From: a virus
Direction: 5' to 3' (one strand)
Length of the DNA stretch: 46,721 nt
IMG/VR virus record: IMGVR_UViG_3300025327_000053
Span: 1-46,721 of that record
This document shows, piece after piece, positions 3,101 to 38,261 of this stretch. The notes below the pieces were generated by a model. The model did not search any database and was not told the DNA's origin. It saw nothing but the letters and a program-made list of their open reading frames with translations. Every line of letters begins with the position of its first letter. Position 1 is the first letter of the stretch. A program made the translations under genes and the position numbers.

Positions 3101-4071
3101 GCGGCCTCCGATTCTTCCGGATTGAACTGGTCCATCTCCGCGACCAGCTTGTTCCACAGCCACGGCGGCACCTCGGCCGGCGCGCCATCATCGCCGTACC
3201 CCGGCCACGGCTGCTCGGTTCCCAGCTCCGCGAGATACCGCTTCCACTGCTCTTGCGCCTGCCGCCAGCGCGTCTCGCCATAAGCGCGATACTGCGCGTC
3301 CAAAGGCATCACCCGCACGGCCCACGGCCGTGCCGTCTCGATGAACACGTCGCGCATCGTTACCCGCCCGGCCAATTCCGGGAAGACCGTTTCGACCGCT
3401 TCGATGTAGGCGGCATTCTGTATGTCGTAGCCGTATTCCGCGATTTTGATCTCGCATTTCTTCTTGCTGGCATCCACGGAAGTGAATTTGAAGTCCAGAA
3501 TCTCGCCGTGCAGAAACTTGCGGGCCCGGCGGCGCCGCTTGCCGTTCTTTGAAACCAGATAAATCTGCGGGAGGATCACATGATCGAGTCGCCCTTCGCA
3601 CCACACCCCGTTCGGAGCCTGCCAGATCAACGTCACTTCGCTCTGCCCGGTCAGATCGATCCCGCGCGCGGCAAGTTCCTTGCGTATATGCTCCACCATG
3701 GCGCGTGCTTCACTGAGTTGCCCCGTAAGGATTGGAAGGCTCCCTTCGGCCAGCGCCACATCGCGAGCTTCCCGGGCGGCCTTGGTTTTCCAATCATCCG
3801 CCGGTACCTCCACGATCCGGCGGCCGCCCAGAAGCAGCTCGTGCGCCACTGATCCGAGATTCGCGGCCGGCCGGTATTCTTCCGACTCCCCTTCTTTCGG
3901 CCCGAAGGCTTTGAACCAGGCATGTAGCGGCGAGCGATTCATCATCACCGCGGCCAGTGATTGATGCAGACGTGGAGGATCGTTTGCCGGTAGCGGCTCC
4001 CCCGGCAGATACATTGCCGCCCGCAATGGCGGCAATGTATGTTCCGATTCAACTTGCTTCGTTTGGCTCAT
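3097..4071 (-). CDS. PDDEXK exonuclease, RecE-like
   Basis: A 324-residue nuclease of the PD-(D/E)xK superfamily, similar to the RecE / exodeoxyribonuclease VIII nuclease domain. Visible motifs: LGSVAHELLLGG (N-terminal helix with conserved His-Glu), WCEGRLDHVI (motif with catalytic Asp), EILDFKFTSV (the D-x-K pair that binds metal and activates water) and YGYDIQNAAYIEAV (the QxxxY-type helix). Such enzymes chew one strand of a DNA end so that a single-strand-binding partner can pair it. Its partners here are the ATPase and SSB. The start codon ATG at 4071 has only a weak ribosome site. Confidence 0.85.
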   Translation of the reverse strand: MSQTKQVESEHTLPPLRAAMYLPGEPLPANDPPRLHQSLAAVMMNRSPLHAWFKAFGPKEGESEEYRPAANLGSVAHELLLGGRRIVEVPADDWKTKAAREARDVALAEGSLPILTGQLSEARAMVEHIRKELAARGIDLTGQSEVTLIWQAPNGVWCEGRLDHVILPQIYLVSKNGKRRRRARKFLHGEILDFKFTSVDASKKKCEIKIAEYGYDIQNAAYIEAVETVFPELAGRVTMRDVFIETARPWAVRVMPLDAQYRAYGETRWRQAQEQWKRYLAELGTEQPWPGYGDDGAPAEVPPWLWNKLVAEMDQFNPEESEAA

Positions 4072-4095
4072 GGCGATAAATAATTTCGTCGTCGC

Positions 4096-4419
4096 TCAAC
4101 ATAGAAAATCCTTCAATAAGGCGGCGATGTAGATTTGAACGCTTGGAAAGCGGGACGGCCCTGGGCGTGGCGGATATGATCTAAAGTACCGACCATATTC
4201 CCTGCGGCATTTTGGACAAAAACGGTATCTGTAAACTTTTCCGTCCTCCACGGGGGGAAGTTGAGCGGAGCAACTTTTACACTGTCGGGCTTCCACCGAC
4301 TCCACAGGCGCGCCAACAGTGAGTGGCCACTTGAATCCGTTGTGCGTCTTACCGTCACGACCGACGCATTTCAGGATCATGACCTCGGTCCCGCCGTTGG
4401 TCCATTGACAAGCCTTCAT
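4096..4419 (-). CDS. Hypothetical protein with CxxC pairs
   Basis: A 107-residue protein of unknown function. The N-terminal half (MKACQWTNGGTEVMILKC..DGKTHNGFKWPLTVG) resembles a small phage domain with a G-F-x-W-P-L-T-x-G signature, seen in many uncharacterised phage proteins. The second half has CKSC and FCPKC, a likely zinc ribbon, and then a basic tail. GAGGTGAAGC before the ATG gives a ribosome site. It lies between the nuclease and another Cys-rich small protein in the early operon. Confidence 0.65.
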   Translation of the reverse strand: MKACQWTNGGTEVMILKCVGRDGKTHNGFKWPLTVGAPVESVEARQCKSCSAQLPPVEDGKVYRYRFCPKCRREYGRYFRSYPPRPGPSRFPSVQIYIAALLKDFLC

Positions 4420-4722: not shown

Positions 4723-5268
4723 TTACGCCGGCAGTTTTTCGATGATCGTGATATTGCCCTTGTTGATGACCACGCTCGGCCCGCCGCCACCATCCCGGCG
4801 CGGCTGAATCTTGATGTAATAGCGATCCCACCATCCAAGCACTCCGCAGACCGGCGCGGTACGGCCCAGCACGTGCACCCGCAGCGGCGTTTTGCATTGA
4901 ATTTGCTTGCGCGCCCAGGCAACCTCCAGCGTCTGCACCGTCTGGCCGCGCTTGGCTGCCGGCGGTTCCTGTGTTTCCACAGGACGGACATCCATCTCCA
5001 CTGGCAGAAATGGCTCCGCCTGGGGAGTGATGAGTATCTCGTTTTCCATGACTGGCGCCGGAGTCTCCGGCCCCGGCGGGATATTTTCCAATAAGTTTGT
5101 GGTTCCCATGAATCGTTCCTCCAATCGTTGAATTGAATTCCTTCCCGGTAAACTAAATCCTTCGGCCGCCACCGCTCCGAACAGCGCCAAGGCCCACACG
5201 ACTGCCGCGCCAATCCCCCACACCTTGATCGCCATCCAGAGCAACTCACGCTCGCGCAATGGAGTCAT
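4723..5268 (-). CDS. Membrane-anchored protein with Hfq/Sm-like C-terminal domain
   Basis: A 181-residue protein. One transmembrane helix spans about residues 12-36 (MAIKVWGIGAAVVWALALFG), followed by a Pro/Glu-rich linker to about 110. The last 65 residues follow the Sm fold pattern. Sm1 is PLRVHVLGRTAPVCGVLGWW plus DRYYIKI, where a Gly-x-hydrophobic step and an Asp-x-Tyr match the Hfq G-x-I-x-x-F-D-x-F signature. Sm2 is VINKGNITII, which lines up with Hfq YKHAISTI. Hfq is a hexameric RNA chaperone that pairs small RNAs with mRNAs. The fold call rests on pattern only; the membrane anchor is not a feature of normal Hfq. The start at 5268 overlaps the upstream stop by ATGA. Confidence 0.6.
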   Translation of the reverse strand: MTPLRERELLWMAIKVWGIGAAVVWALALFGAVAAEGFSLPGRNSIQRLEERFMGTTNLLENIPPGPETPAPVMENEILITPQAEPFLPVEMDVRPVETQEPPAAKRGQTVQTLEVAWARKQIQCKTPLRVHVLGRTAPVCGVLGWWDRYYIKIQPRRDGGGGPSVVINKGNITIIEKLPA

Positions 5269-5570
5269 GCTGCCTCCTGTGATTCGGTTTGGTGGGCCCC
5301 CGCAGACGCGGCCGCCGTCCTTTCGGATACGGCAGGTTCTGAAGTCTGCGGGGGGTTGGTGGGAGGAGAACACTCGGCGAGACGCGCCTTCACGTTCAGA
5401 CGCTTCAATTCTGCATTCACGACTTCCAGGCGTTTCTCGATCAACCTCTTAGCCTGATGCGCCAGCCCGTCCACCGTCATCACGATCGGCGTCTCCAACT
5501 CCGCCCGGCAGGCGGCGCACAGCGGCAAACCGTCAGTCGGGACATCGAATCTGCATAGCAGGCAGGTCAT
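5265..5570 (-). CDS. Zinc-ribbon plus coiled-coil small protein
   Basis: A 101-residue protein. It opens with CLLC-x13-CAAC (MTCLLCRFDVPTDGLPLCAAC), a compact four-cysteine zinc site. A charged amphipathic helix follows (AKRLIEKRLEVVNAELKRLNVKARL), probably a short coiled coil, and the tail is low-complexity and polar. No known function. It overlaps both neighbours by ATGA, so it is probably made in step with the Hfq-like protein downstream. Confidence 0.7.
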   Translation of the reverse strand: MTCLLCRFDVPTDGLPLCAACRAELETPIVMTVDGLAHQAKRLIEKRLEVVNAELKRLNVKARLAECSPPTNPPQTSEPAVSERTAAASAGAHQTESQEAA

Positions 5571-6331
5571 TTCAGCTCCTTAATTGGCTTTCCGAGCCGG
5601 TCGCACTCATACAACACCGTCCCGCGCCGGAAAGCGATCTTGTGCGGGTAGGACGGATTTGGCCAGGCGTAGAGGTCCTTCTTGGCAATCTCGACAGCCA
5701 CGTAGCGGTCGGCGGGGTTGCCGTTTCTGAACTCGTCGCAGAAATACGGCCGCGAACAGGCGTGGAATTTTCCGGCGCCGCATTCGTCACTCTTGGGATC
5801 CCACTCTGGATGCTCCATGGTGGATCCGACTTGCCAGTGCGTTTCGCGGCTTGTGCCTTCCTGGGTCTTAAAATCCTTCGATACCTTCTTGAAGAAGATG
5901 ATCGAACGGGCATCCTGGACGCCGTTGGCGTCCAGCCAGCCAATGACGCCGCGCCGTGTCTTTGGGTGGATCACCGTTGATGTTTTTGATTTTCGCGTGA
6001 TCTTGCCTTTGGCGAGCGCGAAGCAGACGGCGAACGCGAACAGCGCCACGGTTGCGAAATCAGATTGCAGGTGTACCGACACGCAGCCCCGCGCCTCGAC
6101 GGAACTGTTGTCCCGCGCCACGGCGGAACTGTTGTCCCACGCCTCGACGGAACTGTTGTCCCACGCCACGACGGAACTGTTGTCCCGCGCCACGACGGAA
6201 CTGTTGTCCCACGCCTTATTTACAACAATCCTGATGCCAGCTTCGGAGTGGATTTGGATCAACGTGAGATCCTTGAATGAATCCGGCAGGGCATCCAGTT
6301 CCGCTTGCGTGTGAACGACAATTTCCTTCAT
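5567..6331 (-). CDS. Phage protein with eight-residue tandem repeats
   Basis: A 254-residue protein starting after AAGGAGG at good spacing. The N-terminal 38 residues lead into five copies of an eight-residue unit, AWDNSSVV or ARDNSSVE (about residues 41-80), which probably form a short beta-solenoid. A hydrophobic stretch (VALFAFAVCFALA) follows. The C-terminal half, from about residue 165, contains WQVGSTMEHPEWDPK..ECGAGKFHACSRP, a Cys/His-bearing motif shared by many uncharacterised phage proteins, and then a beta-rich segment. The function of the family is unknown to me. The repeat is nearly perfect at the DNA level (see 6091-6210), so copy number may vary between related phages. Confidence 0.75.
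   Translation of the reverse strand: MKEIVVHTQAELDALPDSFKDLTLIQIHSEAGIRIVVNKAWDNSSVVARDNSSVVAWDNSSVEAWDNSSAVARDNSSVEARGCVSVHLQSDFATVALFAFAVCFALAKGKITRKSKTSTVIHPKTRRGVIGWLDANGVQDARSIIFFKKVSKDFKTQEGTSRETHWQVGSTMEHPEWDPKSDECGAGKFHACSRPYFCDEFRNGNPADRYVAVEIAKKDLYAWPNPSYPHKIAFRRGTVLYECDRLGKPIKELK
6091..6210 (-). repeat. Five 24-bp tandem repeats inside a coding region
   Basis: Five consecutive 24-base units, each ending ggaactgttgtccc on the plus strand, differ only at a few positions in the first nine bases. They encode five copies of an eight-residue motif with core DNSS. Near-identity at DNA level implies recent duplication or gene conversion. Confidence 0.9.
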
Positions 6332-6636
6332 GCCAACCTCCTTTTTGTGATTCTGGACGGTGCCGGAAACTCCGCACGGCCTGGGGCAATCCGTGGCCGC
6401 AACTCGAAATCACCCACCGGGTCAAGCCGCTCCGCCCACTCCGGCCTCAAGCCATCTGCCGAGCGCAGCCGCCTCCCCAACTCCGTCAACGCCATTTCCG
6501 CCCCGATAGTTCGCTGGGCCTCGATCCACGCCGCAGAATCCAGCGAGTGGAAATACTTCTCCGCCGCGCAGCGGTGCTTCCTAGCGACCTGCTCTTTCAG
6601 GTCCGCGATTACCTGCTCAATTTGTTCGTTGGTCAC
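6328..6636 (-). CDS. Hypothetical helical protein, first gene of the early operon
   Basis: A 102-residue, mostly helical protein (TNEQIEQVIADLKEQVARKHRCAAEKYFHSLDSAAWIEAQRTIGAEMALTELGRRL). A GTG start at 6636 was chosen because AAGGGG lies just upstream; the frame continues upstream through low-quality sequence without a better signal. Its stop overlaps the next start by ATGA. Unknown function. It lies 140 bases downstream of the terminator of the putative RNA at 6779-6901, so its expression may depend on read-through or on a second, weaker promoter. Confidence 0.65.
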   Translation of the reverse strand: MTNEQIEQVIADLKEQVARKHRCAAEKYFHSLDSAAWIEAQRTIGAEMALTELGRRLRSADGLRPEWAERLDPVGDFELRPRIAPGRAEFPAPSRITKRRLA

Positions 6637-6682
6637 AACGCAGCCCCCTTGGTGAGATGTAAGGGGGATTCTCTGATTGTTT

Positions 6683-6696
6683 GTACTTACTAGTAC
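6683..6696. promoter_or_regulatory. Short palindrome in the early leader, possible operator
   Basis: GTACT-TACT-AGTAC is an inverted repeat with a 4-base spacer, about 50 bases upstream of the first early gene. A second copy of ACTTACT lies near 6725. A second hairpin (CGTCCGA / TCGGACG) is at 6738-6765. These could be regulator sites or RNA structure; nothing here proves either. Confidence 0.35.
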
Positions 6697-6778
6697 CGCT
6701 GGCTGGGTATTAAGGTTTCTAAGACTTACTGGCCTTGCGTCCGACGGCATGAAACTTATCGGACGTAACGGGTTGGAC

Positions 6779-6817
6779 AAAAAAAAGTCGGGGTGCCCCG
6801 TCTCCAGAACACCCCGA
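6779..6817 (-). terminator. Intrinsic terminator
   Basis: On the minus strand TCGGGGTG, a 14-base loop, CACCCCGA, one C, then eight T. The 8-bp perfect stem directly before a T8 run is a textbook rho-independent terminator. It ends the putative RNA and would cut transcription before the early operon unless bypassed. Confidence 0.85.
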
Positions 6818-6901
6818 TATTCAGCGCTTGGACCCGCGAAGGTTGGAGCACTGAATCCCGTCCAAAATGTTTGCTCTGATTGTCGCGGGTCCTGCATAAC
6901 G
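6779..6901 (-). ncRNA. Putative structured small RNA or regulatory leader
   Basis: About 122 nt, predicted from a promoter at 6908-6936 to an intrinsic terminator at 6779-6817. Four segments in transcript order are A = GGACCCGCGA (6892-6883), B = ATTCAGTGCT (6856-6847), A' = TCGCGGGTCC (6839-6830) and B' = AGCGCTGAAT (6828-6819). A pairs perfectly with A' and B pairs with B' with one G-U, each over 10 bp. Because the segments interleave and A' and B' are one base apart, both full helices can hardly coexist, so the RNA may switch between two folds or form a partial pseudoknot. No convincing reading frame covers it on this strand. It could be a free small RNA or an attenuator for the early operon. 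Confidence 0.65.
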
Positions 6902-6907
6902 ATTCGG

Positions 6908-6936
6908 ACTCTATTCCAGGTTCAAAGGCGTGTCAA
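6908..6936 (-). promoter_or_regulatory. Sigma70-type promoter for the 6779-6901 RNA
   Basis: On the minus strand TTGACA (6936-6931, a perfect -35), a 17-base spacer, then TAGAGT (6913-6908, four of six to the -10 consensus). A T-rich tract lies upstream of the -35. The predicted start is near 6901. Confidence 0.75.
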
Positions 6937-7021
6937 GAAAAAAATGAGATCAACTGCATTATTTATGAGAAGTAGTTACCTGTATCATTTGAGGTACGTG
7001 GCCTAATCTCCAATTGTGTTC

Positions 7022-7050
7022 TTGAAATCCGCCGCAGAAGACGATAAGAT
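7022..7050 (+). promoter_or_regulatory. Promoter for the plus-strand secreted-protein gene
   Basis: TTGAAA (7022-7027), a 17-base spacer, TAAGAT (7045-7050). The spacing is ideal and both boxes are close to the sigma70 consensus. It faces the gene at 7106 and lets it be expressed independently of the leftward phage operons. Confidence 0.6.
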
Positions 7051-7105
7051 CACCAGCAATGACTCTGCTCGCCATCGAGCGGGAGGGGGACATAAAGGGG
7101 GACCA

Positions 7106-7792
7106 ATGAAATCGCTACTAATCACTTGGGTATTTGCGTGTTCCGTAGCCGCCACGATGGCCCAGGGGCTTATCGCCGTGGACCTCGACAAGGCCATTGA
7201 TTACGGCAGCCAGTTCAAATCCAGGAAGCAGTTCCTAGAAAAAGGCTTGAAGGCCAACAGGGTCCAACTCGCCTCGGCGTGGGCCAAGGATGGAATCAGC
7301 AAATACGCCACTTTCTTCACTGACTTCGATGCTATCGCATCAGCTTCGGCACAGGCGCAGCAGGAGATGCGGCCATTCTCACGTAAGGATGCGGAGGCGC
7401 TCCCACTCAGTGGATTGATCTATGCGCACGTAGAAATCCATGGTCGCGGGATGCTCCCCACTAGGAAAGTAGAGAGCAGGTACGTTAAGAATCAGGCACA
7501 TCTTGTAGTACAGATCGGCGAGGAAATCGTGCAGCCGCTGTCGAAAGAACTCAGCTCCTCGGGCGACGCCAGCTTCATCCTGCCGATAGCCCTCTTCACC
7601 TGGTGGGATGTTGGTAATGTGAGCCTGCTGACCGGTGGCCCACTCGGAGTCTATGGTGCCAGGGCTGAAATGGAGTTTGTCTTTCGGTTTACTGCAGAGC
7701 AATTGAAGCGCAAGGCGACCGTGATCCTAATCGACGCCGATGGTAACAAACACGACGAAACGGTCGACCTTAGCAAGCTATTTGCGCGCTAG
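7106..7792 (+). CDS. Secreted protein of unknown function (cargo gene)
   Basis: A 228-residue protein and the only clear plus-strand protein gene in the window. It starts with a Sec signal peptide (MKSLLITWVFACSVAATMAQG), so it is exported. The mature part is mixed alpha/beta (DFDAIASASAQAQQEM, YAHVEIHGRGMLPTRKVESRYVKNQAHLVVQIGEEIVQPL, AEMEFVFRFTAEQLKRKATVILIDADGNKHDETVDLSKLF). I do not recognise a family. AAAGGGGG lies before the ATG, and a promoter at 7022-7050 precedes it. An isolated, oppositely oriented gene with its own promoter is typical of a phage moron, possibly altering the host envelope. Confidence 0.8.
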   Translation: MKSLLITWVFACSVAATMAQGLIAVDLDKAIDYGSQFKSRKQFLEKGLKANRVQLASAWAKDGISKYATFFTDFDAIASASAQAQQEMRPFSRKDAEALPLSGLIYAHVEIHGRGMLPTRKVESRYVKNQAHLVVQIGEEIVQPLSKELSSSGDASFILPIALFTWWDVGNVSLLTGGPLGVYGARAEMEFVFRFTAEQLKRKATVILIDADGNKHDETVDLSKLFAR

Positions 7793-7913
7793 CCCGCTGG
7801 AGGCCGGCGAGCAGGTCCACCTGGAGCAGATGCGCCTGATGAGCGGCTTGGCGCAGATTCGCCGTCCGGGCGACACCGCCCGCTGGTGGACCTACTCCGA
7901 AGCCGTACAGTGA
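7791..7913 (+). pseudogene. Possible C-terminal remnant of a plus-strand gene
   Basis: An open frame of about 40 codons without a credible start, reading SPLEAGEQVHLEQMRLMSG and ending ARWWTYSEAVQ, then TGA. It begins exactly where the cargo gene ends, in another frame. It reads like real protein and not like a shadow, so it may be the tail of a gene truncated when the cargo gene was acquired. Evidence is thin. Confidence 0.3.
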
Positions 7914-7921
7914 AACAGTGT

Positions 7922-8272
7922 TTACCCGCCGGGGTGCTTCTTGTCGTCAAACAGGATGGCATCGCGGATCTCCTCGCGCGTGATGCCGGCCTCGGCGAGC
8001 GCCTGATATCCGTACACGCAGCCGTCAATCTTCTCCAGGAAATCGTTGATGAGCGCGGTCTTCAGGTCCATGTCGCGGAGGTTGCCGCCGTGCTCGGCCT
8101 GGCCCTTGCGGTATTTGATATCAATGCAGTAACAGAGAAACGAGTCAACGTCAGCCAGGTGCGCTTCCTGCTCGTCCGTCATTCGCTCCGGTAAAGTTGT
8201 TGGAATGATTGCCATCCCCATGCCTTGTTTCCTTTCTGTGTTGAACATCGTCTTCGTTACTGCTGTTGCCAT
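7922..8272 (-). CDS. Hypothetical phage protein
   Basis: A 116-residue acidic protein of unknown function, mainly helical (MTDEQEAHLADVDSFLCYCIDIKYRKGQAEHGG..LKTALINDFLEKIDGCVYGYQAL). AAAGGAAG precedes the ATG at 8272, 20 bases after the HD hydrolase stop. A second ribosome-like sequence (AAAGGAAACAAGG) precedes in-frame ATGs at 8221 and 8215, and the conserved-looking part starts there (MAIIPTTLPERM). The protein may therefore be about 98 residues. Confidence 0.65.
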   Translation of the reverse strand: MATAVTKTMFNTERKQGMGMAIIPTTLPERMTDEQEAHLADVDSFLCYCIDIKYRKGQAEHGGNLRDMDLKTALINDFLEKIDGCVYGYQALAEAGITREEIRDAILFDDKKHPGG

Positions 8273-8291
8273 TCGTTGCTTCCTTTCTGTA

Positions 8292-8876
8292 TTATGGAAT
8301 TCCCAAAACTTTGGCGCGCCGCAGGAACTCCTCTTCGGCCTTTGCGGGAGGATCCCCTATAATGATGCTGGCCGCCGGCTCAACTCCCACTGCCAAATGA
8401 TCCCAGGATGGACCCTGTTTCATCAGATCGCGCTTCTCGGTCATCAGCATGATTTCATCTGCCATCCGAACCGAGTCCGGCTCCCGGGACGGCAGCCCGA
8501 ACCGTTCACAGATGGCCGTCATTAGACGCCGCTCGGCTTCACGGTAGGCCCTCCCAATGATGGACCAATACTTTACCGGGCGCGGCAGATCGACCAGATA
8601 GGCTTCCGCAGCGTCGTGGAGCAGTCCCCAAGCGGCATCCTCCAGCGGCACGCGGAAACTTACTTCGACGCAGTGCTGCGCCACTGAGTAAAATTCCTCA
8701 CAATGCCCCCCAAAACGGCATTGCATCGAAAGCGCGTGGGCGATATCTTCAATGTGGATTTCCTCTGGACGTGGATCCAGCGGCCAGAATCTGCCGCCGG
8801 AATAGACCTGAATCCAGTCTCCCTCGCGCCCGGTTACCTCCGCCTTTGTGTTGCCATGTGCCGCAATCGTTTCCAT
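8292..8876 (-). CDS. HD-domain phosphohydrolase (YfbR-like nucleotidase)
   Basis: A 194-residue HD-superfamily metal-dependent phosphohydrolase. DWIQVYSGGRFWPLDPRPEEI leads into HIEDIAHALSMQCRFGGH, then YSVAQHCVEVS, and then the signature LLHDAAEAYLVDLPRPVK with the metal-binding His-Asp pair. A further Asp (MADEIML) completes the site. This phage subfamily is thought to dephosphorylate nucleoside monophosphates, adjusting nucleotide pools during phage DNA synthesis; the substrate here is inference. An AAGGGG-rich ribosome site precedes the ATG. Confidence 0.88.
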   Translation of the reverse strand: METIAAHGNTKAEVTGREGDWIQVYSGGRFWPLDPRPEEIHIEDIAHALSMQCRFGGHCEEFYSVAQHCVEVSFRVPLEDAAWGLLHDAAEAYLVDLPRPVKYWSIIGRAYREAERRLMTAICERFGLPSREPDSVRMADEIMLMTEKRDLMKQGPSWDHLAVGVEPAASIIIGDPPAKAEEEFLRRAKVLGIP

Positions 8877-8916
8877 TTCATGCCCCCATTCCCCTTCCCG
8901 GCCGCCGGGAAGCGCG

Positions 8917-9093
8917 TTACCCGCTTTTCTGTGCGGCCAGCCATGCCCGCAGCTCGCACAGCAGATGCCTCGGAACCCAAACCGCCATCCGCTCGGTCAT
9001 TCGGGCCAGGGTGCGGCAAGCCGGATGGCAGAACTTCTGGTGCCGCCGCTTGGGCGTGAACTCCCGCCCGCAAGTTGACAGCGCGCAAATCAT
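8917..9093 (-). CDS. Very small zinc-finger protein
   Basis: A 58-residue protein. MICALSTCGREFTPKRRHQK continues into FCHPACR, giving a CxxxxC...CxxxC four-cysteine site of a type common in tiny phage proteins. The rest is a helical Arg/Leu/Trp-rich tail. GAGAGG lies 9 bases before the ATG at 9093. It sits between the HD hydrolase and a secreted small protein. Function unknown; nucleic-acid binding is likely from the zinc site and positive charge. Confidence 0.7.
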   Translation of the reverse strand: MICALSTCGREFTPKRRHQKFCHPACRTLARMTERMAVWVPRHLLCELRAWLAAQKSG

Positions 9094-13815: not shown

Positions 13816-13843
13816 TTGACAACCACAAGATGTTGGATAAGAT
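13816..13843 (+). promoter_or_regulatory. Promoter for the tRNA pair
   Basis: TTGACA (13816-13821), a 16-base spacer, TAAGAT (13838-13843), facing the tRNA genes at 14002 and 14087. The -35 is perfect. The predicted start near 13850 gives a leader of about 150 nt. Confidence 0.65.
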
Positions 13844-14001: not shown

Positions 14002-14074
14002 GGGGGCGTAGCTCAACTGGAAAGAGCGCGTGGCTCGTACCCCGAAGATGCCCGTTCGAGTCGGGCCGCCCCCA
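14002..14074 (+). tRNA. tRNA-Thr(CGU)-like, irregular anticodon arm
   Basis: A 73-nt cloverleaf: acceptor GGGGGCG/CGCCCCC (7 bp perfect), D-stem GCTC/GAGC, T-arm GCCCG-TTCGAGT-CGGGC. With a five-base variable loop, the anticodon arm is CGTGG/CCCCG with one U-C mismatch and only six loop bases, CTCGTA, giving anticodon CGU for Thr. A seven-base loop would leave just two pairs. The 3' CCA is not encoded. The gene may be defective or use a non-standard loop. Confidence 0.6.
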
Positions 14075-14086
14075 CGCACGAATGAC

Positions 14087-14182
14087 GGAGGGTTAGCATC
14101 AATCGGCAATGCCCCGGACTTATAATCCGAGAGTCCCGTGCCTACACACGGGATGTGAGTTCGATCCTCACACCCTCCGCCA
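14087..14182 (+). tRNA. Class II tRNA with UAU anticodon, encoded CCA
   Basis: A 96-nt cloverleaf: acceptor GGAGGGT/ACCCTCC, D-stem GCAT/ATGC, anticodon loop CTTATAA (anticodon UAU, reading AUA Ile), T-arm GTGAG-TTCGATC-CTCAC, then G and CCA. The variable arm is 24 nt with a 7-bp stem (TCCCGTG/CACGGGA). Long variable arms normally belong to Leu, Ser or bacterial Tyr tRNAs, not Ile, so the amino-acid identity is uncertain. Confidence 0.8.
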
Positions 14183-38184: not shown

Positions 38185-38261
38185 TTTGGTGGCAGGGGCT
38201 AGAATCGAACTAGTTACCTCCGGGGTATGGGCCCGGCATGCAACCACTACACTTCCCTGCG
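38185..38261 (-). tRNA. tRNA-Met(CAU), initiator-like
   Basis: A 77-nt cloverleaf with encoded CCA. Acceptor CGCAGGG/CCCTGCC leaves a C1-C72 mismatch. D-stem GTGT/GCAT, loop AGTGGTT. Anticodon stem CCGGG/CCCGG carries three consecutive G-C pairs at 29-31/39-41, loop CCCATAC, anticodon CAU. Variable AGGTA. The 1-72 mismatch and the triple G-C are the two hallmarks of bacterial initiator tRNA. C33 instead of U33 and A8 instead of U8 are unusual. T-stem ACTAG/CTAGC has one mismatch at its base. Confidence 0.85.

Follow-up and report, generated by a model that had tools for sequence, protein, structure and literature searches.

An intergenic stretch of ~470 bp, between a plus-strand ORF (7106-7792) and a block of minus-strand genes running leftward from it, raises the question whether the promoter, paired segments and terminator crowded onto its minus strand make up an RNA gene and, if so, what such an RNA might do. 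The locus lies in a virus record of 46,721 bases, referred to in its entirety as the window, the minus strand of which carries genes for a tail fibre J-like protein, portal and terminase. A second record, IMGVR_UViG_3300025325_000035 (G002; L008-L010), represents the same phage (100% identity over 27 kb, window 19282-46720) and extends 24 kb beyond the window end, where it harbours replication genes (DnaB, DnaC-like and a polymerase processivity factor); the window is therefore part of a genome larger than 70 kb. A 59-bp stretch occurs twice in this genome at 90% identity (window 8870-8927 and L010 11021-11078). Two adjacent tRNA genes (14002-14182, plus strand), one with an anticodon unreadable by ARAGORN, are preceded by a TTGACA-16-TAAGAT site at 13816, and a further tRNA (38190-38261, minus strand) was detected by Rfam match only. 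The plus-strand ORF 7106-7792, found in a region otherwise mostly transcribed from the minus strand, has a weak promoter match of its own (7022-7050), a signal-peptide-like N-terminus, a codon usage different from that of the phage genes and no relatives in Pfam or in phages, and looks like an acquired cargo gene.

The first-pass annotation had described a transcript of about 122 nt, started by a perfect TTGACA with 17-bp spacing to TAGAGT and ended by a stem followed by T8, and all of these elements were recovered. The sigma-70-type promoter (6908-6936, minus strand; TTGACA at 6936-6931, TAGAGT at 6913-6908) matches the consensus at 10 of 12 positions and is the sole minus-strand sigma-70-like site within 5500-9000; in an 18.5-kb stretch three 10/12 matches, this promoter included, and one further site at 11/12 were counted. 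The predicted RNA, with its start and end placed by inference at ~6901 and at the T-run, measures ~123 nt (6779-6901, minus strand). Its intrinsic terminator (6779-6817, minus strand) consists of a 13-bp stem with a 4-nt loop (6817-6788), a C and T8 (6786-6779); the stem has a stability of about -24 kcal/mol and the highest pair count among the terminators listed in the 18.5 kb. Upstream of it, four minus-strand segments follow one another in the order A-B-A'-B'. Segment A (GGACCCGCGA, 6892-6883) pairs with A' (TCGCGGGTCC, 6839-6830) over 10 bp, all Watson-Crick, and segment B (ATTCAGTGCT, also written AUUCAGUGCU; 6856-6847) with B' (AGCGCTGAAT, 6828-6819) over 10 bp including one G-U, so that the two interleaved 10-bp helices of the earlier description are indeed present. 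A single nucleotide separates A' from B', and another B' from the terminator. Loop L1 (26 nt, 6857-6882) lies between A and B, and loop L2 (7 nt, CCAACCU, 6840-6846) between B and A'. The sequence ACAATCAGAG is found twice, exactly, in the RNA (6874-6883) and in the stretch that follows its terminator (6671-6680), a repeat judged to be within chance for the region.

The arrangement is clearly more than chance. When the 84 nt preceding the terminator were shuffled 5,000 times with dinucleotides preserved, an interleaved pair of 10+10 bp never arose (one of 9+9 bp did once), and A/A' with B/B' is the sole case of this kind on both strands of the 46.7-kb window. The folding energy of the RNA, -53.8 kcal/mol, compares with -35.1 +/- 3.5 for its shuffles (z = -5.3). 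These counts, together with the quality of promoter and terminator, confirm the observation, and the sequence supports the view of a discrete, promoter-driven, terminated and highly structured RNA ahead of the minus-strand genes. The frame of the first downstream gene stays open through the RNA (ORF 6328-6897, minus strand) as far as its ATG (6897), which lies 4 nt from the likely transcription start. A coding role of the RNA segment was nevertheless rejected for its composition, as the 87-codon upstream extension has a GC3 of 0.49 versus 0.64-0.74 in the phage genes. With this low GC3, and with a coding signal clear only from ~6660 onwards, a leaderless mRNA beginning at ATG 6897 appears unlikely.

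The gap of one nucleotide between A' and B' had led to the suggestion that the full helices are largely incompatible, as in a bistable switch. The order A-B-A'-B', however, corresponds topologically to an H-type pseudoknot, and the exclusion does not hold up when the geometry is calculated. In a model built from A-form coordinates, in which the strand runs on unbroken from A' into B', the 7-nt linker between B and A', which must span helix A in the pseudoknot, has ~25 A to bridge across the deep groove and a reach of ~48 A, while the 26-nt linker from A to B has to cover the whole stack (~55 A) and can reach ~160 A; since both reaches exceed the distances, both full helices can form together. 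The sign convention of the groove model was checked by its recovery of the known minimum of ~10 A at a 6-bp offset. Neither are the two folds of similar stability, as a switch would have them: in nested folding the A fold (-53.8 kcal/mol) is better than the B fold (-47.3 kcal/mol) by 6.5 kcal/mol, and the probability of B/B' is ~0 if no pseudoknot term is included. The Dirks-Pierce penalty for pseudoknot initiation is 9.6, and an alternative value of 2009 exists. With the former, pseudoknot plus terminator come to about -56 kcal/mol, with a pessimistic 13 to -52.6 kcal/mol, and with the 2009 value to below about -56 kcal/mol. By this modelling, the A+B pseudoknot would roughly match or surpass the nested optimum under standard penalties. 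B/B' has one real competitor only, the 5-bp inner stem P1b of the nested fold, formed by GAGCA (6876-6872, in L1) and UGCUC (6850-6846), while helix A is essentially constant. The RNA is probably pseudoknotted.

Relatives of the RNA were sought in several ways. A distant-homology blastn search against phage and plasmid records returned no homologue, and a single-sequence covariance model (R1) matched the window itself only. Exact-pattern scans of IMG/VR with four pieces of the RNA gave 1, 14, 4 and 16 matches, none with the paired architecture; as an exact match of 16 to 17 bases was required, diverged homologues could escape these scans. The best match, 22 nt in L048, lies antisense within a capsid-like phage gene (ORF 3272-4372, minus strand) and was rejected as chance. 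The RNA is absent from 24 whole phage records containing relatives of the neighbouring or terminase proteins, and the contig of the same phage, G002, stops short of it. Pattern scans for relatives of the exonuclease VIII-like protein, the first downstream ORF and the plus-strand protein found none. For the DUF7666 protein of the downstream block 23 relatives were found in IMG/VR, and at their loci there is no such RNA; the other neighbours tested are not shared there either, except for a weak AAA ATPase match (L046) and a methyltransferase match (L041). Among the Rfam 15 covariance models no family exceeds its gathering score at the RNA, and the best minus-strand match at E up to 10 (P31, 13.7 bits against a threshold of 40) is at chance level. 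In the collections searched the RNA is therefore an orphan, although a real and well-delimited candidate for a structured phage RNA gene. For a singleton, the usual arguments for function fall away.

A leader of 142 nt (6637-6778, minus strand) connects the terminator with the first downstream ORF; no sigma-70-like promoter was found in it, so that expression of the block would need read-through, a non-consensus promoter or antitermination. The first ORF (6328-6636, minus strand; 102 aa, GTG start) has no Pfam or PADLOC match and fits no known toxin or RNA-binding family, and its neighbours have no PADLOC match. It is helical by a structure prediction which, like that of the plus-strand protein, is of low confidence and was left out of the argument. 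The second gene (5567-6331, minus strand) encodes a DUF7666 protein of 254 aa, and genes for an exonuclease VIII-like protein and an AAA_24 ATPase follow further on in the same orientation; on the basis of these last two, the earlier name "early operon" seems plausible. Within the DUF7666 gene, a 24-bp tandem array of 5.3 copies (6088-6215, minus strand) encodes octapeptide repeats of DNSSV-A-W/R type; their number seems to vary, and IMG/VR relatives such as L044 and L045 match the array many times in overlapping fashion. In the leader, the Shine-Dalgarno sequence of the first ORF (AAGGGGG, 6650-6644) falls within a 7-bp CCCCCUU/AAGGGGG hairpin (6667-6644, minus strand). Translational control of the first ORF by this hairpin is possible, and is regarded as a lead only since the stability of the full leader is unremarkable (z -1.2).

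The reading that we tentatively prefer, at somewhat less than an even chance, is that of a stable phage RNA, ended by a terminator that at the same time throttles the block downstream. Host sigma-70 RNA polymerase would make the ~123-nt noncoding RNA from the RNA's own promoter; helix A/A' would close once A' is transcribed, and B' would next pair with B, which lies in the loop, to yield a compact A-B-A'-B' pseudoknot that is stacked beside the terminator hairpin. Most transcripts would be released at the strong intrinsic terminator and accumulate as a stable RNA acting in trans, with a protein or another RNA as its most probable binding partner, while a minority would continue into the promoter-less block, the terminator thereby setting a low basal level of its genes. 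This reading draws support from the good-quality promoter and terminator, which frame the structured segment exactly, and from RCd22 of phi027, a characterised phage RNA of the same layout (PMC12373285). A search for antisense targets among the phage start regions yielded only 11-nt matches and no outstanding duplex.

The main rival, itself doubtful, is a cis-acting antiterminator similar to HK022 put, in which the nascent fold would bind RNA polymerase and cause read-through of the adjoining and later terminators into the recombination operon. The succession of promoter, folded RNA of 60-80 nt, terminator and early-type operon resembles the HK022 P_L-putL order (PMC9378689), and the missing separate sigma-70-like promoter of the operon would be accounted for. 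The fold, however, is a single interleaved A/B unit and not two successive stem-loops, the terminator begins only 1 nt on, which leaves no distance to set up a modified polymerase, and an Rfam match is absent.

Unlikely, too, is a conditional attenuator or riboswitch leader, in which a ligand or protein bound to the pseudoknot would decide between termination and read-through. It is suggested by the position of the RNA ahead of an operon without its own sigma-70-like promoter and by the possibility that B switches partner between B' and the inner stem P1b; pseudoknots are, moreover, a common aptamer fold. Yet B' stops 1 nt short of the terminator, which is overlapped by neither helix and is independent of the fold state upstream. 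The pairings able to capture the 5' arm of the terminator amount to 7-10 bp and are mostly G-U rich, as against a stem of 13 bp, and when the 3' arm was withheld in folding, no alternative fold captured the 5' arm extensively. With capture pairings as weak as these, a competing-hairpin attenuator is unlikely, and the attenuator proposed by the first-pass annotation is not supported in its classical form, no strong antiterminator having been found. The ligand sensor that it had also considered fares no better, as no riboswitch family matches the RNA even at E up to 10, and no other Rfam family does so above chance.

A chance assembly or decayed remnant, with no role beyond that of an insulating terminator between divergent gene blocks, would fit the orphan sequence in all collections searched, and terminators are commonplace between gene blocks; it is made distinctly unlikely by the 0 of 5,000 shuffles and the uniqueness in 46.7 kb, by the fold z of -5.3 and by the intact promoter and terminator that serve as a frame. 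Improbable, though conceivable, is that the RNA represents a class new among phages, in which a pseudoknot with 10-bp stems, close to the promoter and immediately ahead of a terminator, might act on RNA polymerase or a host protein and gate the recombination operon without a dedicated phage protein. Very improbable is that the RNA serves as antitoxin or decoy for a toxin encoded downstream, the two forming a type III toxin-antitoxin or AbiF-like unit: although promoter, structured RNA, terminator and gene are ordered as in RCd22-abiF (PMC12373285) and ToxI antitoxins are pseudoknots (PMC8860590), there are no tandem RNA repeats (within 5000-9000 a tandem array occurs only in the DUF7666 gene), the neighbours have no ToxN/CptN/TenpN or AbiF match, the abiF RNA motif is absent, and in the E. 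coli structure stem S1 of ToxI comprises four pairs, versus 10 here.

To our knowledge, descriptions of structured noncoding RNAs in phages are few and come mostly from model phages or from families rich in homologues. Comparative searches, which depend on homologues, miss RNAs of such a singleton type, and one with a promoter, a candidate pseudoknot and a terminator could be transcribed in vitro and probed at little cost. If it were true that the RNA controls entry into the recombination genes, it would represent a second, for now hypothetical, fold for protein-free antitermination.

Three characterised systems invite comparison. ToxI antitoxins are pseudoknots made of short units in tandem repeats (PMC8860590); the present RNA shares with them a pseudoknot, here a predicted one, transcribed ahead of a gene, and differs in having neither tandem repeats nor a ToxN-type gene. 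The putL RNA of HK022, ~70 nt located just past the promoter, forms two stem-loops and requires no dedicated protein (PMC9378689). Here as well, a folded RNA directly follows a promoter and precedes a terminator and genes; by the description of the fold the two are set apart, since in place of two successive stem-loops there are interleaved helices, A-B-A'-B', with the terminator at once behind them. RCd22 of phi027, up to 132 nt in length, has its own SigA promoter and a Rho-independent terminator, the next gene is without a promoter, and the transcript is mostly short with some read-through (PMC12373285). Unlike RCd22, which contains two abiF hairpin motifs and is followed by the AbiF toxin gene, the present RNA has a single interleaved fold and is followed by the 102-aa ORF; the abiF RNA motif (RF03085) was absent from it in Rfam searches at the gathering threshold and at E up to 10, and no AbiF/Abi_2 gene was found downstream (Pfam and PADLOC for the 102-aa ORF, PADLOC for its neighbours). 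Since this ORF matches no known toxin or RNA-binding family, the parallel is one of layout only; in this respect RCd22 is the closest of the characterised cases, both being structured RNAs borne by phages, each with its own promoter, its own terminator and a promoter-less gene downstream.
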